Source: Terriglobia bacterium
GTDB lineage: Bacteria > Acidobacteriota > Terriglobia > Acidiferrales > UBA7541
Assembly (NCBI GenBank): GCA_020073485.1
Contig: JAIQFB010000009.1
Coordinates: 1-64,000, forward strand
Reading direction: 5' to 3'
Length of the DNA stretch: 64,000 nt
Position numbers and translations under genes: made by a program. This document shows, piece after piece, positions 8,007-34,012 of this stretch. Position 1 is the stretch's first letter; the number at the start of each line of letters is the position of its first letter. The notes beneath the pieces were generated by a model, which was given only the letters and a program-made list of their open reading frames with translations, made no database searches and had not been told where the DNA came from.

Positions 8007-9350
8007 TTACAGGTCCGGATCAGCCTGCAAGTGGTAGGCGGTGTTGCTCCGAAGAAAGTGACTCGCCAGAATAGCGGCAGCGGCCAGGATCGCAGGAATC
8101 GCCCCAGCGGCCAATATCTGCCGCGCCGACCAATCCAGTGACATCATAATCCCGCCAAATACCGGACCGGCTATGGACCCGAGACGGCCCAGACCCAAAG
8201 CCCAGCCCACGCCGGTAGACCGGATCGAGGTCGGGTAAAAAGTCGCGGCTAGAGCGTTAAGTCCAGCCTGCGCCCCCTGAACGAAAATACCTAACAGAAA
8301 CGTGACAATAATAAGGAGCGGAAATCCGGTGACAACTGCAAGCGATCTAATCAGGATCGCGCAGAACACAAACTCCGTCAACAGCGTGGCAAAACCACCC
8401 CATGCGCGCATCGGGCGACCTTGTAGTAGAGATCCGACGACGCCCCCTAAACTAAAAACAGACACAGCAATAATTCCTCCTGAAAGCGGCATGTGGGTCT
8501 GCAGGAGCAGTGCTGGCAGCCAACTCACGATGAAATACAAGATCAGAAGGTTCATGAAGAAGGGTATCCATAACAATAATGTTCCCACTGCGCGCCCTTG
8601 GGTAAACAGGTACATAAAGGGAACTCCTGTCCGCAGTTTGTCAACGGAAATTGAATAATCGACGGAGCCCCGTACAAATCCAGGCGAAATCCGCGAAAGA
8701 ATCCCATCGGCGTTCGTTCGATCAGCACTCGTCAAGGCTAGAAATCGGATCGATTCGGGAAGGATCTTAATCAGAACTAGCGCCACCACGATTGGCAGTA
8801 TGCCCCCGACGTAAAAAACGGCCCGCCAGCCCCATATGGGCAATATCACCGCGCTGACAATACCTCCAAGAAACGCACCTAGAGGCATGCCACAAAAGAG
8901 CATCGTCACCAAAATCTGCTGTAGCTTTTTGGGAGCGTACTCGGAAGTTAAAGCGACGACATTGGGCATAGCACCGCCTAAGCCGAGCCCTGTCAAAAAA
9001 CGATAAGCCATCAGCTGATTCAATGACGAAACACTGGTTGTAATTAGAGCAAAAGTTGCAAATATCAGAGTGGAAGTTACGATCGGCCATTTGCGGCCAA
9101 GCCGGTCGGCGATCGGGCCTGCCGTCATAGAGGAGATCATTAGCCCTAATAGTGCTGCTGCGAAAACAGGACCGAATGTTTTCACGGGAACCTGAAGAGA
9201 TTCAGCCATCGCGGGCGCAAGAAAACCAATACTCTGTGTGTCGAAACCATCCAGAACAAGCACGAGCCCACAAAGTAGGACCGTTGTTATTTGATATCGA
9301 CTCAGGGGTGCCTTGTCTATTATTTCGCTAACCGTGAGAGAGTGGTTCAC
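8007..9350 (-). CDS. MFS transporter, aromatic-acid:H+ symporter type
   Basis: A 447-residue major facilitator with twelve predicted membrane segments. The family motif DGFDTQSIGFLAP at the end of TM1 is typical of the aromatic acid:proton symporter (AAHS) branch (PcaK/BenK-like). The loop 2-3 motif GPIADRLGRKWPI is also present. The likely start is GTG 9350, five bases after the stop of the preceding cupin gene, so it is the last gene of a cupin-cupin-MFS operon. The Shine-Dalgarno is weak, which suggests translational coupling. It probably imports an aromatic or other organic acid handled with the cupins. The substrate is not determinable. Confidence 0.88.
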   Translation of the reverse strand: MNHSLTVSEIIDKAPLSRYQITTVLLCGLVLVLDGFDTQSIGFLAPAMAESLQVPVKTFGPVFAAALLGLMISSMTAGPIADRLGRKWPIVTSTLIFATFALITTSVSSLNQLMAYRFLTGLGLGGAMPNVVALTSEYAPKKLQQILVTMLFCGMPLGAFLGGIVSAVILPIWGWRAVFYVGGILPIVVALVLIKILPESIRFLALTSADRTNADGILSRISPGFVRGSVDYSISVDKLRTGVPFMYLFTQGRAVGTLLLWIPFFMNLLILYFIVSWLPALLLQTHMPLSGGIIAVSVFSLGGVVGSLLQGRPMRAWGGFATLLTEFVFCAILIRSLAVVTGFPLLIIVTFLLGIFVQGAQAGLNALAATFYPTSIRSTGVGWALGLGRLGSIAGPVFGGIMMSLDWSARQILAAGAIPAILAAAAILASHFLRSNTAYHLQADPDL

Positions 9351-15208: not shown

Positions 15209-16039
15209 CTACTTCTTGGGTGCGGCCTTTGGCACGTTAAGCTTCTTGGAGCCGTATGCGGGCTTCATTACTTCTTGGTTATACTCTGCGTCGACGCCTG
15301 GAACACAGATCCATTCCTGGAAGCGATCGTTTTGCAACTTCAGCTCTCTTGTGAAGCCTGCCCACGGCTTATCGCCCCAAAATTTCGCATCGTAGAACGT
15401 CATTTCCACTTTTATCGTGTTGTAGCTGGTGCGTCTATATCGCTCGATAAGGTGAAATTGGTCACTCATGGGGTGATCCACATACTCAGTAATCCAATCT
15501 TTGCCGTTATATCCGATCGTGTCGACTACAAGTGTGTCGCCGTCCCATTTCCCAATCGAATCCCCCATGTACGTAGGCAACAAATCATTGCCCTTGGGAT
15601 GTTCTTCGCCAATCCAAATATCGCGAAACTCCCGATGAAGCTCGAAAGCCTGATGGATCCGACCGGGAAGTTGAATGTTTTCCAGAGGGTAGAATTGTAG
15701 ATAGGCGAACTGCGCAGGGAAACCGATCGGATCACAGTTCTGTCCCGCAAATCCACCGCTGACCGTTATGTCTTTGTCTTTGGCGGCATGCGTAATTCCT
15801 TCCGGAAAAAGGTGTTGCTTGCCCCAAGCCGTCAACGGAGGTTCCGGTTCTGAGCTAATGAATGGAATACTTGACTTGGGTATCTCCGAGAGCCGCCAAA
15901 CCCCGGATAGATCATGAGGGTCAAATGTCTTGTCACTATCCGGTACATCGACCGACTTTGCCGGGCCCTGCGCAAATAGAACGGGTGCCAAAGCGAAGAG
16001 CGCACCCGTCAACAATAATCCTACTAGGCGAAACCTCAT
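15209..16039 (-). CDS. Secreted protein of unknown function, acidobacterial type
   Basis: A 276-residue exported protein. The signal peptide (residues 1-23) ends near LFAQ. The mature chain has DPHDLSGVWRL, then NCDPIGFPAQ, FYPLENIQLPGRIHQAFE and the conserved-looking core GKWDGDTLVVDTIGYNGKDW with HPMSDQFHLIERYRR. I recognise this as a widespread secreted family of Acidobacteriota with no established function. GGAGA precedes ATG 16039. It lies 65 bp downstream of the Oar-like receptor and 75 bp upstream of the DUF6152 gene, so the three are likely co-transcribed. No enzyme motif is evident. Confidence 0.7.
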   Translation of the reverse strand: MRFRLVGLLLTGALFALAPVLFAQGPAKSVDVPDSDKTFDPHDLSGVWRLSEIPKSSIPFISSEPEPPLTAWGKQHLFPEGITHAAKDKDITVSGGFAGQNCDPIGFPAQFAYLQFYPLENIQLPGRIHQAFELHREFRDIWIGEEHPKGNDLLPTYMGDSIGKWDGDTLVVDTIGYNGKDWITEYVDHPMSDQFHLIERYRRTSYNTIKVEMTFYDAKFWGDKPWAGFTRELKLQNDRFQEWICVPGVDAEYNQEVMKPAYGSKKLNVPKAAPKK

Positions 16040-24975: not shown

Positions 24976-25317
24976 GTGACAATTACAGGGCGCCTTTTCG
25001 GAAAACCAGATGGTCTGATAACGAAAGTTCTGGGTGGGGAGATTGCTTTCCAGCTGACCAAAGTGGGCTACGTGCCGCTGGCGGAAATCGGCGCGGAGTT
25101 TTTATTCCAGGTGATCGCCGAGCGGGCCGAACGAGCCACGCTGATCGTGACCACGAACTTACCCTTTTCGGAATGGACGCAAGTATTTCCGAATCCGCGA
25201 TTGTGCAAGGCGCTGCTGGATCGCATCACCGACCGCGCACACATCATCGAAACCGGCACGGAGTCATATCGCTTCCGGCGCACGGTGGAAGGACGACAGA
25301 AGAAAAAAGCTTCGTAA
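24976..25317 (+). pseudogene. IstB-like transposition ATPase, C-terminal relic (IS21 type)
   Basis: From about 25045 the frame encodes the C-terminal part of an IS21-type helper ATPase: [20 protein letters not shown], then [15 protein letters not shown] and [20 protein letters not shown]. The Walker A region and the first two thirds of the protein are missing. The leading residues (24976-25044) belong to unrelated sequence. The right end of the element is marked by a tandem repeat at 25470-25517. No IstA gene is in the window, so the element is dead. Confidence 0.8.
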
Positions 25318-25517: not shown

Positions 25518-25699
25518 CGCAACGTTCAGTGTATCGCGTTATCGGCACGCGATTGAGCCCCTTATGGTCTTGCTCATTTCATATGCCGGCGTGAAGGCCG
25601 CTTGCGCAGCCCGCGAAGCGCTTCGCCGCTGATTACTCGGCTGTTTGTCGCGGCTCGAGATGCCTGCGGAAGCGATGATTTCTCATCCGGGTGTAGATG

Positions 25700-25890
25700 A
25701 TTTTGTAACTTCGAAAGCACCAAACTTCAACAAGCTTCAACAAAGTTCAACAGGTGGACCGCAAACGATTCAACAAGAACCACTTAGAATCCACAAGATT
25801 CAATAGGGCTGAACAAGCCTTGGCGCCTGGTTCGGGACCAGGAGGCCGGAGGTTCAAATCCTCTCGCCCCGACCATTTATTTTCAATGAT
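25700..25890. repeat. Left copy of a 190-bp direct repeat (iterons plus tRNA-Pro 3' half)
   Basis: This segment recurs at 32823-33012 in the same orientation. Both copies start at ATTTTGTA, pass through CGAAAGCACCAAAC, carry an array of about six TTCAACAA-like heptamers/octamers, and end with the 3' half of a tRNA-Pro gene and TTTTCAATGA. The two copies differ at scattered positions. They bracket a 7-kb signalling operon and look like att-type duplications. Confidence 0.8.
25826..25875 (+). tRNA. tRNA-Pro(CGG) 3'-half fragment (left copy)
   Basis: The sequence has the 3' side of the anticodon arm with stem CCTGG/CCAGG around loop TTCGGGA (anticodon CGG), a variable region, the T-arm with GGTTCAAATCC, the acceptor 3' strand CGCCCCG, and CCA. 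The 5' acceptor strand and D-arm are absent: nothing resembling CGGGGCG lies upstream. It cannot make a tRNA. It has the form expected of an att site left by an integrase that uses the tRNA 3' end. Confidence 0.75.
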
Positions 25891-26053
25891 ATATGCCGTT
25901 GGGCGTGGCCCGAAACTCAAACCTCTGGTTTCAGCCCAGGTGACCTAGCGCGAAAACGCGCAAGAAATAACGAATTCTAGCGGCAATGAGTGTGCTTGAG
26001 TTGTAACAAAAACTTCTACAGTCTGTTTCCGACACAGGATACCTACCTACCCA

Positions 26054-27616
26054 TCAGACAAGTCGCACTGGGCGTGGGTGGTCCAATACACCCCTGATCA
26101 TTTGACTAATGCTGCGCTGGGAGTACGGTTTTTGAAGGAAGGACGCACCCCTTTCAATCATCGAAGTCAGAGATGCTGCTTCGCTCGTATAACCAGTAGT
26201 GAAGACCACTCGCAAATTGGGCTGGAGGCTAGCCATTTGCAGAAATGCGTCCGGTCCGGATAATCCGGGCATCACTACGTCCAGAACAACCAGAACTACG
26301 TGTTCGCAATTCGCCTTGAACAGTCGGACTGCTTCCAGGCCATCGGCCGCGGCAATAACGCGATAGCCGAGTGTTTCCAATATTTCTTGGGCCGATTGCC
26401 GGAGTCCCTCGTGATCTTCGGCCAACAGGATTGTTTCGTTGCCTCTCCGTGGTATTTCTTCAGATTGAGCCTCACAGGTTTCTGATGCTCCACTACTGGC
26501 TGGAAGATAGATTCGAAATGTTGTTCCTTTCCCCACCGCACTATCCACGTCGATGAAGCCGCCATGCTGCTTCACGATCCCGTACACAGTTGCCAAACCG
26601 AGCCCTGTTCCTTGTCCTAATTCCTTTGTGGTGAAAAATGGTTCGAAGATTTGCTCAATCGTTTCTGCATCCATCCCAAGGCCCGTGTCTGACACCGACA
26701 GCAATACATAGCCTCCTGGGCGCGCGTAGCTGTGGAGACAGCAGTATTCTTCTCCGATCTCAACATTACTGGTTTCGATAATCAGTTGCCCGCCGTTCGG
26801 CATGGCATCCCTCGCGTTTAAGCAGAGGTTCATAAGCACTTGGTCGGCCTGCACCGGGTCCACTAGCGTGATGTGTAAGTCATGCGCAGTTTGAACTGAA
26901 ACTGTGATGTGTTCCCCGATAACTCTGCGAAGGAGACTTATGCCTTGCAAGACGTGCATGTTCAGGTCGATCCTTCTCGGTTGCAGGATTTGGCGTCGCG
27001 CAAACGAAAGAAGTTGAGAAGTCAATCCCGCAGCCCGCTTCGTTTGGTCCATAATCTTCTGCAAACGTTCGTGAAGATGCGTGCCTGGTTTTGTTTCCTC
27101 ATGGCAGAGTTCTGCCCAGCCCAATATTGCGCCAATAACATTATTGAAATCATGGGCTATTCCACCTGCTAACCGTCCGATCGCCTCAAACTTTTGTAAT
27201 TGTTGCACCTGGTGTTCCAACTGCTTACGCTCATGCCGTTCCTTGGCCTCCCGGAGTTCGCGTTGAACGGCAGAAACGAGCCGCTTCAAGTTCGTTTTCA
27301 TGAGGTAATCTTGGGCGCCGTCCTTCAATGCGGCGACGGCAGTCTCTTCCCCAATCGTTCCAGAGACAAAAATGAAAGGTATTTCGGATCCATGAGATCT
27401 CAGAATGTTCAGCGCATCGATTCCGGAAAAATGCGGCATGGAGTGATCTGAGATCACGAGGTCCCATTTATGATTGTGCAACGCCGCAGTCAGCGCAACA
27501 GAGGTATACACACGCTCGTGGCTGACATCGTAGCCACCACGCCGCAATTCGCGCAGAAGCAACGCTGCGTCGTCCTCGGAGTCTTCAATCATCAACAAAC
27601 GAAGGGGGATTGGCAT
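26054..27616 (-). CDS. Hybrid sensor histidine kinase (REC-HisKA-HATPase-REC)
   Basis: A 520-residue soluble signalling protein. An N-terminal receiver (residues 5-120, phospho-Asp57 in LVISDHSM) is joined by a coiled coil (about 120-145) to a histidine kinase core. The phospho-acceptor His155 lies in GGIAHDFNNVIGAIL. The ATPase has N-box NLCLNARDAM, then SVSDTGLGM and GTGLGLATV. A C-terminal receiver contains VLDVVMPGLSG. No membrane segment is present. It is the last gene of a five-gene leftward operon; its ATG lies three bases after the stop of the single-domain receiver gene, and GAGGAGA precedes it. It probably takes phosphoryl signal from the upstream kinase and receiver. No DNA-binding output is encoded in the operon. 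Confidence 0.92.
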   Translation of the reverse strand: MPIPLRLLMIEDSEDDAALLLRELRRGGYDVSHERVYTSVALTAALHNHKWDLVISDHSMPHFSGIDALNILRSHGSEIPFIFVSGTIGEETAVAALKDGAQDYLMKTNLKRLVSAVQRELREAKERHERKQLEHQVQQLQKFEAIGRLAGGIAHDFNNVIGAILGWAELCHEETKPGTHLHERLQKIMDQTKRAAGLTSQLLSFARRQILQPRRIDLNMHVLQGISLLRRVIGEHITVSVQTAHDLHITLVDPVQADQVLMNLCLNARDAMPNGGQLIIETSNVEIGEEYCCLHSYARPGGYVLLSVSDTGLGMDAETIEQIFEPFFTTKELGQGTGLGLATVYGIVKQHGGFIDVDSAVGKGTTFRIYLPASSGASETCEAQSEEIPRRGNETILLAEDHEGLRQSAQEILETLGYRVIAAADGLEAVRLFKANCEHVVLVVLDVVMPGLSGPDAFLQMASLQPNLRVVFTTGYTSEAASLTSMIERGASFLQKPYSQRSISQMIRGVLDHPRPVRLV

Positions 27617-27619
27617 TTA

Positions 27620-28063
27620 TCATCTCCTCGCCGGTGGCCGTTCGTTGAGAACCAGCCAGTACAATCCGAGTTGGCGAACGGCCTCGATGAACTTAGTGAA
27701 GTCGACGGGCTTGCGCACATAACTATTCGCGCCCAAATCATACCCGCGGTACCGGTCCTGCTCTTCGTTGGAAGACGTCAGAATCACTACGGGCAGCAGT
27801 TTTGTACGCTCGCTTGCCCTTAGCTGCCGCAAGACTTCCAAGCCATCGACTTTGGGTAACTTCAAGTCCAATAAGACAACATGTGGTAATAGGTTCGGGT
27901 CTCTCCCGGAGTATTTTCCGGCGCCAAACAAGTAATCGAGCGCTTCAGCGCCGTCGCGTGCGACGACCACTTGATTGAGAATATTGTTCTTTTTAAGCGC
28001 CCGAAGCGTAAGCGCTTCGTCGTCCGGATTGTCTTCGACCAAAAGTATGACGTTGTCACTCAT
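27620..28063 (-). CDS. Single-domain response regulator (receiver only)
   Basis: A 147-residue receiver of the type often paired with Hpt- or phytochrome-type kinases. The acidic pair (VEDNPDDE), phospho-Asp in VVLLDLKLPKVDG and conserved Lys in YVRKPVDF are present. There is no output domain. The open frame continues upstream to 28375, but AAGGAT precedes ATG 28063 and the receiver fold starts there; the extension overlaps the kinase gene. It lies between the CHASE-type kinase and the hybrid kinase and probably shuttles phosphate between them. Confidence 0.9.
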   Translation of the reverse strand: MSDNVILLVEDNPDDEALTLRALKKNNILNQVVVARDGAEALDYLFGAGKYSGRDPNLLPHVVLLDLKLPKVDGLEVLRQLRASERTKLLPVVILTSSNEEQDRYRGYDLGANSYVRKPVDFTKFIEAVRQLGLYWLVLNERPPARR

Positions 28064-28091
28064 TGTTTCATCCTTGAACGAACCGAGTTGG

Positions 28092-29534
28092 TCACAATGT
28101 AAAGTAGAAAGTTGCACCCTTTTCGACAACCCCTTCCGCCCAAATCTTTCCTCCATGCCTGTGGATGATTCGTTGCACCGTGGCGAGACCGACGCCCGTC
28201 CCTGGGAACTCAGTCGCCGTGTGAAGGCGCTGGAAGGCTCCGAAGAGACGGTCCGCGTAACGCGGATCAAAACCCGCGCCGTCGTCGCGCACGAAAAATG
28301 AACTCTTGCCGTTCTGCTCGTTCTTGCCGAATTCGATCCGGGCACACGGGTGGCTGGAGGTGTATTTCCAAGCATTGCGAAGCAGGTTTTCCATCGCCGC
28401 TCGCAGTAGCTGCAAATCTCCCGTGGCCGTTAAATCATTTTCGATCAAGAACTCCACTCGGCGGCTCGGCTCCGCTTCCTGAAGTTCCGCGGCAATTGAT
28501 TTTGCAACAGCGCTCAAGTCGAGATTCTCGCGGTGTATCGCGCTTCTGGTCACGCGGGAGAGATTCAGCATGTCGTCAATCAGTGTGGCCATATGCTGGG
28601 CCGCGCGGCGCACGCGCTGAAGATGATCCTGGGCGTTGGAATCGAGCTTGTCGGCATAATCTTCCAGGAGCGCTTGACTGAATCCATCGATGCTGCGGAG
28701 CGGTGCTCGCAAGTCGTGAGAGACAGAGTAGGAAAAGGATTCGAGCTCCTTATTGATCGTAGCCAGCTCGGCCGTTCGCTCTTGAACCCGTTGCTCCAGC
28801 TCGTCGTGAGCCTGTTGTAAGGCCGCGTCGCGCTCTTGGATCTGCGACAACATCCCGTTGAATGCTTCAATTAAGACTGACAATTCATCGTGGTTGCCTG
28901 TAGGTGTGGCTCGTACCGAATAATTCTTGTCGCGAGAGACGATGCTGGCGACCTCCGCCAAATGAACGATCGGTTTAGCGATGGCCCGGCGAAAAATCGG
29001 CGAAACCAGTAAGGCTGCCAGTAGACAAACGACCATTACGATGCCGGAGATTCCCCCATATAGCCAAAGGCGAGCATTCAATCTTTGCAAGTCCGACCGG
29101 ATATAAACGATTCCAGTCGGCTTGCCCTTGAATACAATCGAGCGGACCAACAATACATCGCCACTCCCGAAGCGATACGTCTCGGTCTGTCCCACGGGAA
29201 TTGGAGGCAGCGCTGGGACTTGGGTGTCGCGATCGCGCGAATACGTCGCAAATGGACGGCCGTCGAGCGTTAAAATGCCCGCGGAAATGATGTTGGGCGA
29301 AGCCTGCAGCGCGGACAATGTATTCTCTGCCGAAATCGAATCGTCAAACAGCAACGCGGAAACAGTATTGGATCCAGCGATTTGTGCCTGGATGGAAAGG
29401 TTGTAGATCGTGCTTTGTCGAAAGGAGACCCGATCGTAGGCAATAAATGACGTACAGGCCAGAAGCAGCGCCGCGCCGCTAACCAGTATGTTCATCCATG
29501 TCAGCTTCTTGGCGATCGAATAATGTCTGAACAT
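28092..29534 (-). CDS. Membrane sensor histidine kinase with periplasmic sensor and HAMP
   Basis: A 480-residue kinase. TM1 is about residues 13-35, followed by a periplasmic domain (36-152) resembling the CHASE8 type (ALLFDDSISAENTLSALQ). TM2 is about 158-178, HAMP about 180-232, and a coiled coil 232-265. HisKA has phospho-His273 in SYSVSHDLRAPLRSIDGFSQ, and the ATPase has NLLRNAWKY, VRDDGAGFD and GTGVGLATV. It lies 6 bp after the YfiR gene, so the periplasmic YfiR protein is a natural candidate for its sensor partner. The downstream genes encode a receiver and a hybrid kinase. Confidence 0.92.
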   Translation of the reverse strand: MFRHYSIAKKLTWMNILVSGAALLLACTSFIAYDRVSFRQSTIYNLSIQAQIAGSNTVSALLFDDSISAENTLSALQASPNIISAGILTLDGRPFATYSRDRDTQVPALPPIPVGQTETYRFGSGDVLLVRSIVFKGKPTGIVYIRSDLQRLNARLWLYGGISGIVMVVCLLAALLVSPIFRRAIAKPIVHLAEVASIVSRDKNYSVRATPTGNHDELSVLIEAFNGMLSQIQERDAALQQAHDELEQRVQERTAELATINKELESFSYSVSHDLRAPLRSIDGFSQALLEDYADKLDSNAQDHLQRVRRAAQHMATLIDDMLNLSRVTRSAIHRENLDLSAVAKSIAAELQEAEPSRRVEFLIENDLTATGDLQLLRAAMENLLRNAWKYTSSHPCARIEFGKNEQNGKSSFFVRDDGAGFDPRYADRLFGAFQRLHTATEFPGTGVGLATVQRIIHRHGGKIWAEGVVEKGATFYFTL

Positions 29535-29540
29535 CGTCGA

Positions 29541-30185
29541 TCAGTCTCCAGGCTGTGAAGTTCTTCTCACAGCAGCAGCTACTTTCAATAAATCAGAGCT
29601 TAAAGTCAGACCTGCGTCCTGGGCGCTTGTGAGATTCACCTCGAAACGAATCTTGCTCCCCACCATGACGAACTGGATCATCCCGCCGCGCTGCGAGAAC
29701 TGCGGCATGTCACTGACGGTCAGGACCCCCGCCTTATCGAGCGCCGCCAGGAGTTCCTTTAGTCGACTGCCCTCGGACGAGCTTATATACAGAACGCGGC
29801 AATTCGCGGCATCTTGCGGTTTTGCAACTCGCTTCGCCACCACAGCCTTGCCGTCTATGGTTTCACCCGCAAGCATGCCGTCAAGAGCGGTGCCGAATGG
29901 ATCCTGCCCAATCACGCAAATGGAAAACGAATCGCCCTTCGCCGCAGTGGCATTGGGGGGCCATTGGACAAATCGACCGAAATTATAAAGATAGGTGGCC
30001 TTCACCTGATACTCGGACACTTTTGGTTGTTGGGCTTGCAGGACGGGAATGTGTAGAAAAGCCAACATCACGATAACCGCTGTGGGGCACTGCCACACGC
30101 CAAGGTAACGATTGGAAACACGGTTGCGCGGAGCGCATTGGTCCGATGCGGAGCTACTCGAGCGCGTCATGGATATCGGTACCAA
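29541..30185 (-). CDS. YfiR-family periplasmic protein (DUF4154)
   Basis: A 214-residue exported protein. A long N-terminus precedes a hydrophobic stretch (VIVMLAFLHIPVLQA) and the mature YfiR domain: YQVKATYLYNFGRFVQWPPN at its start, then SICVIGQDPFGTALD, CRVLYISSSE, LTVSDMPQF and GGMIQFVMVGSKIRFEVNL. In Pseudomonas YfiR is a redox-responsive periplasmic repressor of the diguanylate cyclase YfiN. Here no cyclase is nearby and a kinase follows instead. TTG 30185 directly follows the receptor stop and has GGAGAAGG upstream, so translation is coupled; ATG 30170 is an alternative. Confidence 0.87.
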   Translation of the reverse strand: MVPISMTRSSSSASDQCAPRNRVSNRYLGVWQCPTAVIVMLAFLHIPVLQAQQPKVSEYQVKATYLYNFGRFVQWPPNATAAKGDSFSICVIGQDPFGTALDGMLAGETIDGKAVVAKRVAKPQDAANCRVLYISSSEGSRLKELLAALDKAGVLTVSDMPQFSQRGGMIQFVMVGSKIRFEVNLTSAQDAGLTLSSDLLKVAAAVRRTSQPGD

Positions 30186-32321
30186 TTACCTTCTCCACGT
30201 AACCTTTCCGTAAATGCTTCTCTTGATCCCGACCAACGGGCCAGCATCCCCTCCAAATTCGTTGTGAGAGGGCTGCAGGAGGTTCTGCCCGATGACCGAA
30301 AGATCGAGACCCTCTCCACGGTGCCATCCTAGCCGGACGTCAGCCGTGCTATAGGCGCTCACGTTGTATTGAGGAAGCCCGCTCATGTATCGGTACGTCA
30401 TGTCGAGTTCGAAATGCTCTGGCAAGTTGATGAGCGATTGGAAGCCCAGGACGTGGCGAGGGCTTGAGCCCATGTAGTTCGCGAGCAAATTTCCCACATC
30501 CGTGAACCCCGGCTTGTCCTTCAGCGCCATATCCAGATAGGAATAAGACCCGCGCAGCTGCCACCAATGCGTAATTTTCCAATCGGGAGCGATTTCCACG
30601 CCGGCCGTGTGGCCCTCGATAATGTTGGCATAGGGCAGGATGAAGAAAACGGGCGCGGTGGGCGAGTCCTGGCTGACCACGGCTGGGCCGTAGCCCTGCA
30701 GATCGTTATACGTATTGTAAAATGCGGTAAAATCCAGGTACACGTTGCTGTTGACCTGGGTGCGGTATCCCACTTCATAGCCGATCAATTGCTCCGCCTT
30801 AGCCTTGGGATTTCCCTGGATCTCGAAGTAAACGGGTACGGGTGATGGCGGCGTTCCGAGATTAAAGTTGCCAGCAAAGATGTCGAACACAACATCCTGG
30901 TCCTGGCGCGACGGTGTCCGTACGGCCCGCGTCACTGCGGCCCAGATGGACTGGTGCTCCGTCGGCGTCCACAGCAGCCGCACGCTGGGCTCGTATTCAA
31001 AACCGCTGAAGTTGTTGTGCTCCAGCTTGGTTCCCGCTGTCAGCGTGAGCTTGTCGTGGACGATAGGAAATTCATATTGCAGAAAGCCGCTGTAGATACT
31101 GTCGGTTTGTTTGCTCGGCAGAAAATTCACGCCTGGCGCAGTCTGAATGAAGTTGCTCGGGCTCACCCTTGCCCCCAGGCCCCAGGTTAAATCCTGGTCG
31201 CCAAGGATGCGCGCATGCTGGACATAATCAATATCGAACGTATCGCGCGTCTCAGCGCCTTCAATGTCCCCCCGATTGGTCCGGTCGAAGTACGCTTTAA
31301 TCTGGATGTCCGAGCCTTCCCCGGTCGTGCGCTGCCATCGTGCCAGCAAATTGCCTCCGGTGGCGGACGCTATGGCGTCCTGCCGCACTTCGGCACCCGG
31401 AGAAAATAAAGCGAGAAGGGATGTCTCTCCGCTTCCCGCACTGTAAGTATCGCCTTGCACGGTAAAGGTGTCTTTGTCGCCGCTCTTCCAATCTGTACGG
31501 AAGCCCACCTGGCCCATCCGCCAGCGGTCGAAGCCGTCCCCATCCGGGTGAAACTCCGGCCCGCGAATAGAACCTGTGCCATAGATGCGATAGTTGAAAT
31601 CCTTTCCGACCGTGCCGCCATAACGAACGCTGCCCGTCCCCTGATCGACATTTCCGCCGCCCAGTGTGACCAACGCACCATGGGTGTTCTCTGCACTCTT
31701 CGTGATGATGTTGATCACCCCGTTGACCGCGTTCGCTCCCCAGATCGTACCACCCGGTCCGCGGACCACCTCGATGCGTTCAACGTCCTCGAGCATCACG
31801 CTCTGCACGTCCCAATACACTCCTGCGAAGAGCGGTGTGTAGACGCTCCGGCCGTCAATCAAAACCAGCAGGTCCTTTGAGAACTGGCCGGCTAACCCGC
31901 GAATCGCGACAGACCAATGATCCGCATCGATGCGCGCCACCTCCACACCCGGCGCCAGGCGAAGGGCCTCCGGGATGCTCGTGGCTCCGGAACGCCGGAT
32001 GTCTTCCTGCGTGATGACAAAGATCGCTGCGGGAGTCTTCAGAACCTGCCGCGGGTCCTTGGAAACAGTGGTCACTTCAACGTTTCCCAGTTGTTCCAAG
32101 CTCAGTTGCTTAAGATTCCCACTGTTATCCTGGCTATTTTGCGAGTCGCGTGCCCAACTACCTTTGAGCGTGAACGGCAGCAAAACGAGCCAGATTCCGA
32201 TCGTTGAGGCGACTCTACGTCGAGTGCACATAGCCGACCGGATGGACGATGTTCTGCATGGTCTTCTCGAGTGTTGGGTCGGCAAGGACATATGTTTCGA
32301 AAAGTCCCTAAGAGCGCTCAT
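30186..32321 (-). CDS. TonB-dependent outer-membrane receptor
   Basis: About 711 residues. After an Arg-rich leader and a signal sequence (GIWLVLLPFTLKGSWA) comes the linker LEQLGNVEVTTVSKDP and a plug domain with RRSGATSIPEALRLAPGVEV, then IRGLAGQFSKDLLVLIDGRS and VERIEVVRGPGGTIWGANAV. A 22-strand type barrel follows, ending SIYGKVTWRR. It is a classic siderophore/vitamin-type receptor, unlike the two Oar-like ones. The start is uncertain: ATG 32321, 32291 and 32231 are possible and none has a strong ribosome site; 32231 would already give a signal peptide. It heads the operon with YfiR and the kinases, suggesting ligand-coupled signalling. Confidence 0.87.
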   Translation of the reverse strand: MSALRDFSKHMSLPTQHSRRPCRTSSIRSAMCTRRRVASTIGIWLVLLPFTLKGSWARDSQNSQDNSGNLKQLSLEQLGNVEVTTVSKDPRQVLKTPAAIFVITQEDIRRSGATSIPEALRLAPGVEVARIDADHWSVAIRGLAGQFSKDLLVLIDGRSVYTPLFAGVYWDVQSVMLEDVERIEVVRGPGGTIWGANAVNGVINIITKSAENTHGALVTLGGGNVDQGTGSVRYGGTVGKDFNYRIYGTGSIRGPEFHPDGDGFDRWRMGQVGFRTDWKSGDKDTFTVQGDTYSAGSGETSLLALFSPGAEVRQDAIASATGGNLLARWQRTTGEGSDIQIKAYFDRTNRGDIEGAETRDTFDIDYVQHARILGDQDLTWGLGARVSPSNFIQTAPGVNFLPSKQTDSIYSGFLQYEFPIVHDKLTLTAGTKLEHNNFSGFEYEPSVRLLWTPTEHQSIWAAVTRAVRTPSRQDQDVVFDIFAGNFNLGTPPSPVPVYFEIQGNPKAKAEQLIGYEVGYRTQVNSNVYLDFTAFYNTYNDLQGYGPAVVSQDSPTAPVFFILPYANIIEGHTAGVEIAPDWKITHWWQLRGSYSYLDMALKDKPGFTDVGNLLANYMGSSPRHVLGFQSLINLPEHFELDMTYRYMSGLPQYNVSAYSTADVRLGWHRGEGLDLSVIGQNLLQPSHNEFGGDAGPLVGIKRSIYGKVTWRR

Positions 32322-32822
32322 AGGGTTGGGTTGGCTCCCAGTGGGAGAGAGCATGGGGGCCAATGTTTCAAATTTTACTTCACACAATCGCATCACGCTG
32401 GATTCAAAGTTGCATACGTGTCTAAAAGTGAATTGGCTGGCTTTTCCGTTCGTCAGCTGATCCAACGCGATCACTGTTGGCATCACTGATAGCGGTCTCA
32501 GTGGAACTGTCTCCGTGCGAACTGGCGTTCGATTGGGGGGCCACCAACCTTTAACCATGAGGGCCCACTTTACGAAGGGACGATCTGGTGAGCTGCGAAT
32601 TCGATTTTGGCCACGTAAAACTCGAAGATTGAGATTGGCGGAGCGCTGGTCGGAACAGTCGTGCCTAAGAACCGACGATCAGTCAATTTTGAAGGCAAAG
32701 TCCCCCAAGTCTTGGGCGAGCGGCATTTTCAAACTTTGTTCTGGCACTGCTCGACTCATGGGTAATCGCGTTGGCTTTCAGACACCCCTAGAATAATGCT
32801 TCGTGATTTCATAGTGTTGGCA
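32322..32822. other. Upstream region of the signalling operon, no gene seen
   Basis: About 500 bp between the receptor start and the right-hand direct repeat. The promoter of the leftward operon should lie here. No supported gene or RNA is visible; short frames on both strands have no recognisable content. Confidence 0.35.
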
Positions 32823-33012
32823 ATTTTGTAGCTGCGAAAGCACCAAACTTCAACAAGATTCAACAGAGTTCAACAAGCGAGCCGCAAACGTTTCAACAGC
32901 AATCACCTAGAAACCACAAGATTCAACAGACTTCAACAAGAGTTGGCATCTGGTTCGGGACCAGGAGGTCGGAGGTTCAAATCTTCTCGCCCCGACCATT
33001 CTTTTCAATGAG
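32823..33012. repeat. Right copy of the 190-bp direct repeat (iterons plus tRNA-Pro 3' half)
   Basis: This is the direct-orientation partner of 25700-25890. It has the same order: ATTTTGTA, GCGAAAGCACCAAAC, an array of TTCAACAA/TTCAACAG units, the shared CCGCAAACG and CCACAAGATTCAA spacers, the tRNA-Pro 3' half and TTTTCAATGA. Scattered substitutions separate the copies. With the left copy it brackets the TonB/YfiR/kinase operon. Confidence 0.8.
32950..32998 (+). tRNA. tRNA-Pro(CGG) 3'-half fragment (right copy)
   Basis: Anticodon arm CTGG TTCGGGA CCAG, T-arm GGTTCAAATCT, acceptor 3' strand and CCA are present. The 5' half is absent, as in the left copy. One T-arm position differs (ATCTTCTCG against ATCCTCTCG), so this copy has also drifted. 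It is not a functional tRNA; it probably marks an attachment site. Confidence 0.75.
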
Positions 33013-33362: not shown

Positions 33363-33628
33363 ACTATTTTTGTAAACCCATCCGGTCAGTTTGTCCAATT
33401 CTGTACAGCTTAAGTGTAGTAGTTACCCATTGATTTGCGTATGACACTTTACGTCGCTCTGAAGCATTTTGGGACATTTCTCAAGGCGATCCCCTGGAAA
33501 AGTTGGCTTTACATTCAATACACACGACTTATAGTTCTCGTCGAATGCACAGAATGCTTCTACAGTGCAGTCGATTTAGATCGACAAACCTAAACGGACG
33601 GCTTCTTATCATTCTAGTAGAGAACATT

Positions 33629-34012
33629 ATGTATAACCAAACCGAAGCTCAACAGGCACAGTCAGCAAACCAGAGAACTCATCTCAGCGAGTCAGAAATG
33701 CTCGATATCCTCGAACTGGCGCGCAAGACCAATGCTCGCGATTGGGTGATATTAGTTTTGGCTTTTCATCATGGTTTGCGCGTTACCGAGGTCTTGGAGC
33801 TCAATATAGAGGGCAGCATTAATTGGAAGGACCGCACGCTGACCGTCAAGCGTTTGAAGGGCAGCCTGACCACGACACAACCATTGGTCGAGATCCGCGG
33901 CAAGCCCGCCTTGTCCGAAGTGGCCGCCCTGAAAGCCTACCTTAGAAGTATCGGGCCTGAGCTAAATTTAGATCGTGGGGTTTCGCAGGAAACATCTCCT
34001 GCGCGCGTTTAA
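33629..34012 (+). pseudogene. Tyrosine recombinase, truncated after the first catalytic Arg
   Basis: A 127-codon frame encodes the start of a tyrosine-recombinase catalytic domain: HLSESEMLDILELARKTN, then AFHHGLRVTEVLEL with the first catalytic Arg, and LTVKRLKGSL with the beta-strand Lys. The normal HxxR and Tyr regions are missing; after ALKAYLRSIGPEL the reading turns to unrelated sequence. It lies 630 bp beyond the right tRNA-Pro fragment, consistent with a relic of an element that used such att sites. Confidence 0.7.

Follow-up and report, generated by a model that had tools for sequence, protein, structure and literature searches.

The TTCAACA array that precedes each of two tRNA-Pro(CGG) fragments in the DNA analysed here is probably the P-arm block of a tyrosine-integrase attachment site, with integrase-free cassettes stacking behind tRNA genes and an integrase that most likely acts in trans. 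The stretch, hereafter the window, comprises the first 64 kb of contig C2 in a Terriglobia genome (46 contigs, 5.05 Mb). Below we describe the anatomy, conservation and orientation of the array-bearing unit, the tandem series of cassettes that it closes and the turnover of cassettes at one tRNA gene.

Two copies of one unit in the window

The window contains 15 matches to TTCAACAR, compared with 4.2 ± 1.8 in 100 dinucleotide shuffles, none of which reached 15; ten of the 15 matches fall within two arrays. The initial annotation had described irregularly spaced TTCAACA(A/G) repeats at 25700–25830, in the same phase to the tRNA piece in both copies. All positions do coincide: measured from CTGGTTCGGG of the tRNA-Pro(CGG) piece (25827 in copy 1, 32950 in copy 2), boxes lie at −101, −91, −81, −58, −28 and −18 in each. 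Their spacing is uneven, as had been stated, but not loose, for the same 10/10/23/30/10 series recurs in both copies and forms a ~10-bp grid with breaks. Because the two copies are related by descent, these identical positions are conservation, not independent origin.

The feature also proved longer than first delimited. The unit measures ~185 bp (about 25692–25875 for copy 1 and 32815–32998 for copy 2) and consists, in order, of a TGTAGnnnAnTTTGTAGC pair (hereafter the TGTAG pair) 135 bp left of the core, the TTCAACA boxes and a tRNA 3′ half running from anticodon stem to CCA. In its layout the unit agrees with the P arm and core of an attachment site for a tyrosine integrase. The features are as follows.

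25692–25709, + strand: copy 1 TGTAG pair (TGTAGATGATTTTGTAAC), at the outer P-arm end and exactly 135 bp to the left of the core; proposed integrase arm-type site, predicted to be bound
25726–25816, + strand: copy 1 TTCAACA array, exact boxes at 25726, 25736, 25746 and 25769
25799 (TTCAATAG) and 25809 (TGAACAAG), + strand: diverged boxes of copy 1, in the same register as the copy 2 boxes
25827–25875, + strand: copy 1 core, 3′ part of tRNA-Pro(CGG), anticodon stem to CCA, matching the intact tRNA-Pro(CGG) of contig C40 at 49/49 positions
25876–32998, + strand: interval between the two core ends, 7,123 bp, with Pfam genes; read as one cassette
32815–32832, + strand: copy 2 TGTAG pair (TGTTGGCAATTTTGTAGC), 135 bp left of the core
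32849–32939, + strand: copy 2 TTCAACA array, exact boxes at 32849, 32859, 32869, 32892, 32922 and 32932
32950–32998, + strand: copy 2 core, 3′ part of tRNA-Pro(CGG), 47/49 identical to the intact tRNA
33434–34009, + strand: open frame of a truncated tyrosine recombinase, after copy 2 (Phage_integrase, E = 9.7e-9 for frame 33503–34012)

The copy 1 core gave one Rfam match, to tRNA and slightly below the gathering score. Between the core ends, Pfam identified a hybrid histidine kinase, a response regulator, a CHASE8 histidine kinase, a YfiR-like protein and a TonB-dependent receptor; by analogy with tandem series in other genomes, we infer that these genes may form a single cassette. A fragment of an IstB (IS21) ATP-binding protein lies at 24976–25317, just left of copy 1.

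The array accompanies every full copy in the genome

Using the 191-bp region as query against the whole genome, we obtained 16 matches, four of them full-length: two on C2 (C2a and C2b), one on C26 and one on C40. In all four the array stands on the element side of the tRNA fragment, with the tRNA 3′ half directly after it. The refuting condition named in the initial annotation, other tRNA-Pro-derived copies that lack the array, was thus not borne out by the full copies. The conserved spacer reported earlier, CCGCAAACG, is present in C2a, C2b and C26, and C40 carries the variant CCGTAAACG. Among the loci examined, the sole intact tRNA-Pro(CGG) shares contig and orientation with the C40 copy, from which it is 1.1 kb distant; the flank of the C40 copy is a repeat-rich gene. 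The 3′ halves match the intact tRNA at 49/49 positions in C2a and C40 and at 47/49 in C2b and C26. No tRNA-Pro was found on contig C2, and the intact tRNA is not on the same contig as the C2 and C26 copies.

The unit is conserved across related genomes

BLAST with the array part located the unit in 14 of 201 relatives. An alignment of 13 units from nine genomes spans 138 columns with few gaps (9–10 columns in three rows, two breaks of ≤9 columns at the end of one row and, at most, one row with a 1-column gap). With a sequence-only search model built from this alignment, 42 of the 201 relatives gave matches at E ≤ 0.01. At E ≤ 1e-4 the model matched 62 genomes in a set of 399 from the class, and in a phylum-wide draw of 297 genomes it matched 15, seven of them outside the class and mostly with partial matches; these genome samples overlap. 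One genome, G387 (L181, L195, L196, L205), gave 34 arm-model matches at E ≤ 1, on both strands and many to the TGTAG end only. We found no description of the 138-bp arm in the literature on acidobacterial tRNA islands, consulted mostly outside subscription journals.

The distance between TGTAG pair and core was analysed in 72 arm–core pairs with 72 distinct arms, namely those 100–150 bp apart among 108 pairs; the other 36 (<100 or >150 bp), many of them probably chance, were left out. It is exactly 135 bp in 40 of the 72 and 134–136 bp in 48, and nine pairs form a class at 125–127 bp, about one helical turn shorter. Across these pairs, boxes with ≤2 mismatches concentrate at −101, −91, −81, −58, −38, −28 and −18, with 304 boxes compared with 94 ± 9 after mononucleotide shuffling; since the unit itself was the query with which these loci had been gathered, the box and distance counts describe conservation within it. 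The grid seen in the window copies thus recurs in related genomes, with repeated motifs in a fixed register to a dyad core, as in the P arm of a tyrosine-integrase attP. The 8-bp boxes lie 10–30 bp apart and the bases between them are partly conserved across genomes; near-constant repeats with unique spacers are absent, in line with the earlier argument against a CRISPR array. The proposal that the repeats are protein-binding sites draws support from the register of the boxes, which points to a fixed arrangement of putative sites.

The tRNA half is swappable and the unit follows its target

In most genomes displayed, the arm runs into a tRNA-Pro(CGG) 3′ half. In others it precedes the 3′ half of tRNA-Ala(TGC) (G018:C148, G119 and probably G169), of tRNA-Pro(TGG) (G132, G110 and G254) or, judged by eye, of tRNA-Arg (G095 and G101). 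The tRNA half of the unit is therefore swappable, and the fragments start mostly at the anticodon stem.

We counted by eye the orientation of units on contigs where a unit and its intact target tRNA are no more than about 75 kb apart. In 11 of the 12 (G000:C40, G018:C95, G018:C148, G006:C50, G306:C1, G210:C1, G102:C82, G321:C40, G213:C4, G033:C98 and G254:C31) the unit lies on the 3′ side of the tRNA and in equal orientation; the exception is G054:C30, where the unit is inverted relative to its tRNA. The count leaves out weak partial units as well as G161:C7 and G270:C1, in which more than 200 kb separate the two; in the single-contig genome G270 the unit is distant from both tRNA-Pro matches. 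Together with the element-side position of the array in the four full copies, this upstream tRNA supports the earlier link between the array and site-specific integration at tRNA genes.

The tRNA 3′ half is missing from some units, for example from four of the five on G132:C68. At L186, L189, L191 and L202 the unit core passes into CCAGGTTCTCGACCC-like sequence and not into a tRNA half, and such cores may be sites that never held one; at L186, L189 and L191, CTACAG, the inverse of TGTAG, occurs about 110–125 bp further on. On G018:C95 (L093 / L282 15378–15549), the first unit is followed by its tRNA 3′ half and then by two further tandem copies of that half, with a period of 85 bp.

Units close cassettes that stack behind tRNA genes

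Units close cassettes behind tRNA-Pro and tRNA-Ala genes, with up to four in tandem. On G018:C148, an intact tRNA-Ala(TGC) at 8566–8641 is followed by four units on the same strand at 15722, 22550, 44688 and 57320, giving intervals of about 7, 7, 22 and 13 kb in a series that spans 8642–57455 (L141–L143). The cores of these units are identical to the intact tRNA-Ala(TGC) at 48–49 of 49 positions. According to Pfam, each interval holds one functional module: a respiratory cassette (cytochrome c, molybdopterin oxidoreductase, iron–sulfur protein, NrfD and DUF3373), an RND efflux pump (OEP, HlyD and AcrB), a NiFe hydrogenase (large subunit, 20-kDa-type small subunit, Nuo51-type and FlpD proteins, along with the maturation and other proteins HycI, HypD, HypE-like, HypB-like and HypF) and a chemotaxis cassette (CheW, CheR, MCP, CheA-like, CheB and a hybrid kinase). 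No recombinase or transposase was detected in 39 scanned frames of the series (37 chosen, at least 110 aa long, plus two added). The PF00589 profile had four matches in the G018 genome, none of them on C148 or C95.

On G018:C95, MerT/HMA and CopZ-type proteins adjoin tRNA-Pro(CGG) and are followed by a cassette with GAF and bestrophin-like proteins. The cassettes on C148 and C95 have attachment sites at both ends and no recombinase found among frames of at least 110 aa, the combination by which cis-mobilizable elements are recognized. A cassette in G306 encodes a DEAD-box helicase that partially matches helicases of defence systems; we make no assignment to Hachiman, given only partial HamB-like helicase matches and no HamA in five frames.

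The same tRNA-Pro(CGG) locus could be compared between G018 and G006, which belong to one genus. Its flanks are 77–86% (left) and 72–84% (right) identical, and the two genomes have one cassette in common at 83–86% identity. The cassette next to the tRNA differs, measuring 3.6 kb in G018 versus about 11.6 kb in G006.

These observations bear on the possibility that the units are relics, that is, decayed ends of ordinary integrase-bearing islands that lost their integrase genes, with no movement in trans. Integrase remnants do occur near tRNA genes or units (the window frame at 33434–34009, G035 and the G199 locus L199), and the missing tRNA halves would also suit decay. Yet C2a, C40 and two of the four G018 units retain cores that agree with the intact tRNA at 49/49 positions, the four G018 cassettes are complete, each with one function and without a recombinase among the 39 frames, and the tRNA-side cassette differs between congeneric genomes. 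We therefore regard relics as a rather unlikely account of the units, and cassettes served by an integrase in trans as the preferred one.

Integrases near units and the TGTAG pair

We searched for integrases near units with a profile built in this analysis. Apart from the C26 integrase and one located centrally in the 25-kb G102:C82 island, matches were limited to the truncated frame that is the window's entire integrase content, a fragment at L156, and genes or remnants at L198, L199 and L204. The remnant at L199 (G199) lies 1.8 kb from a unit but faces tRNA-Glu, and those at L156 and L204 lie beside tRNA-Met and tRNA-Val. The truncated window recombinase has 11 matches in 8 of 61 genomes, and of the contigs concerned only that of the window has a listed unit. 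In the selection of integrases compared, we saw no non-Xer family common to unit-bearing genomes; G110 and G102 each have two adjacent Xer-like recombinase genes (L159, L169). For one integrase from the window's genome, the four named relatives are Acidobacteria/Terriglobia metagenome bins.

The C26 integrase is the one intact integrase beside a unit. The 3′ ends of members of its family (L045–L073) face tmRNA, tRNA-Lys, Leu, Cys, Ser and others, with a TGTACC direct-repeat pair between. Given these relatives at tmRNA and many tRNAs with TGTACC pairs, the C26 integrase is probably not the owner of the array. Between a tmRNA and the C26 integrase (L017 4548–8444) are a nucleotidyltransferase-like frame and a HAD-SIR2-SLOG fusion protein, a cargo that possibly serves defence. 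A viral origin of the array was also rejected: 11 viral-contig loci found with a relaxed pattern were all judged by eye to be chance matches, and a tRNA gene was present in none of the 11.

A different integrase family is marked by the TGTAG pair, which reappears downstream of some intact tRNA-Pro genes in unit-bearing genomes. In G013, the pair and the 3′ end of an integrase gene next to tRNA-Pro(TGG) overlap. Relatives of this integrase occur in 39 of 399 genomes. Inspection of 23 of the 30 loci returned showed a tRNA facing the gene in 14, another orientation in four and no tRNA in five. Of the 14 facing tRNAs, 11 have the TGTAG pair within 140 nt, compared with 1 of 21 for C26-type integrases, none of 19 other tRNAs and 0.6% for random positions. 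The pair follows only 6 of 24 intact tRNA-Pro genes in unit-bearing genomes and 3 of 30 unit cores; 30 of 62 pairs at 124–138 bp had an intact 3′ end plus enough following sequence for the test. G013-type integrases and units co-occur weakly (10 genomes versus 6.1 expected, P = 0.06), and the window's genome has no G013-type match at E ≤ 1e-24. In a G013-family element on G035:C29, the integrase gene is truncated, and the far end has a clean tRNA-Pro(TGG) fragment without an array. Full-length elements that carry both an integrase and the TTCAACA array, which had been suggested as a check, were not found.

The array had first been read as integrase arm sites, but TTCAACA is not common to both arms, whereas the TGTAG pair recurs. 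That the boxes themselves are arm-type sites, with the TGTAG pair bound by another factor, has some precedent: such sites typically comprise several direct repeats that keep a fixed register to the core, and the attP of a Mesorhizobium ICE has, in the cited part of its description, five arm-type motifs that are all required for integration (PMC11963761). We consider it improbable here, as the boxes were seen on one side of the core only and the TGTAG pair occurs, in some cases, on the other side as well and beside integrase genes; TTTTCAA after CCA, a possible single box of the other arm, was rejected as unspecific (10 of 24 tRNA-Pro genes versus 6 of 19 control tRNAs). Replication iterons, which phased direct repeats resemble, or operator sites of a cassette regulator are highly improbable, given boxes locked to the tRNA core and not to any gene, varying cassette content and no replication initiator named among the proteins reported individually for the G018 series and the window.

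A proposed mechanism

Because the TGTAG pair recurs across the core and beside integrase genes, unlike TTCAACA, it is the more likely putative integrase arm-type site. In phage lambda, Xis sites lie between the arm sites and the core. The TTCAACA boxes, found on one arm only and likewise between arm pair and core, are by this analogy more likely to be a platform for an excision or bending factor. One such factor, RdfS of the Mesorhizobium ICE, oligomerises and binds within attP without a clear motif, according to the cited part of the report (PMC11963761).

From the outside in, the preferred reading would thus comprise the TGTAGnnnAnTTTGTAGC arm-type pair, six to seven TTCAACA boxes that form a platform on a ~10-bp grid, and a core formed by the anticodon-stem dyad (for example, CTGGT-TCGGG-ACCAG), with recombination expected in the tRNA anticodon stem-loop. 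Integration would restore the tRNA at one end of the element and displace its 3′ half to the other end, beside the P arm. Cassettes in which we detected no integrase gene would insert in tandem behind the tRNA, and each array with its tRNA piece would therefore mark the far end of a cassette. We infer that the cassettes are moved by an integrase in trans, most likely supplied by transient elements; the G013-type family, whose other arm has the same TGTAG pair, is the best candidate.

Relation to known systems and implications

The closest known kind of element is the tRNA-targeted, cis-mobilizable genomic island. Islander maps islands targeted to tRNA and tmRNA genes and, in the cited text, requires an integrase gene for each island, tandems included (PMC4383910). 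Like the islands described there, the elements reported here have a displaced 3′ fragment at one end and, on most contigs counted, an intact tRNA in the same orientation at the other, with a probable anticodon-centred crossover and the possibility of tandems; unlike them, the G018 cassettes have no tyrosine integrase that we could find, and a conserved 138-bp arm is common to several tRNA targets. In Dehalococcoides, 15 ssrA islands without an integration module were called possible cis-mobilizable elements (PMC3146451). As far as the cited account goes, those islands also stand in tandem behind an RNA gene, with 3′ repeats between them and a conserved motif beside the repeat, but they involve a single RNA gene, a motif of 15 bp and a serine recombinase, in place of several tRNA genes and a 138-bp arm with phased boxes, and here no integrase module in the same genome is tied to the arm. 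Additive islands of Methylophilaceae and tycheposons both place cargo behind tRNA genes (PMC10872708). The additive island is marked, as here, by recurring tRNA 3′ repeats, in that case of tRNA-Lys, whereas tycheposons contain a tyrosine recombinase, and we saw no comparable arm in the cited description. Island finders that require an integrase gene would miss the cassettes described here.

Integrons stack cassettes that lack a recombinase of their own and are marked at one end by a shared site. The cassettes found here are likewise stacked, with no recombinase of their own found and a shared site at one end; they differ in being operon-sized and in having tRNA halves as cores. More tentatively, and with considerable doubt, the units may represent a phylum-spanning, integron-like system in which one arm, a matching tRNA 3′ half and an integrase in trans stack operon-sized, integrase-free modules. 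New cassettes would then enter next to the tRNA and push older ones outward, building up modules for respiration, efflux, hydrogenase, chemotaxis and metal handling behind tRNA-Pro, tRNA-Ala and other tRNA genes.

The 138-bp arm predicts candidate binding sites for an integrase and probably for an excision factor. As a searchable tag of cassette ends, it makes the content, order and turnover of cassettes mappable across a phylum of hard-to-culture soil bacteria. For these organisms the cassettes look like a route to complete functions, such as the hydrogen use and chemotaxis encoded behind the tRNA-Ala gene of G018.
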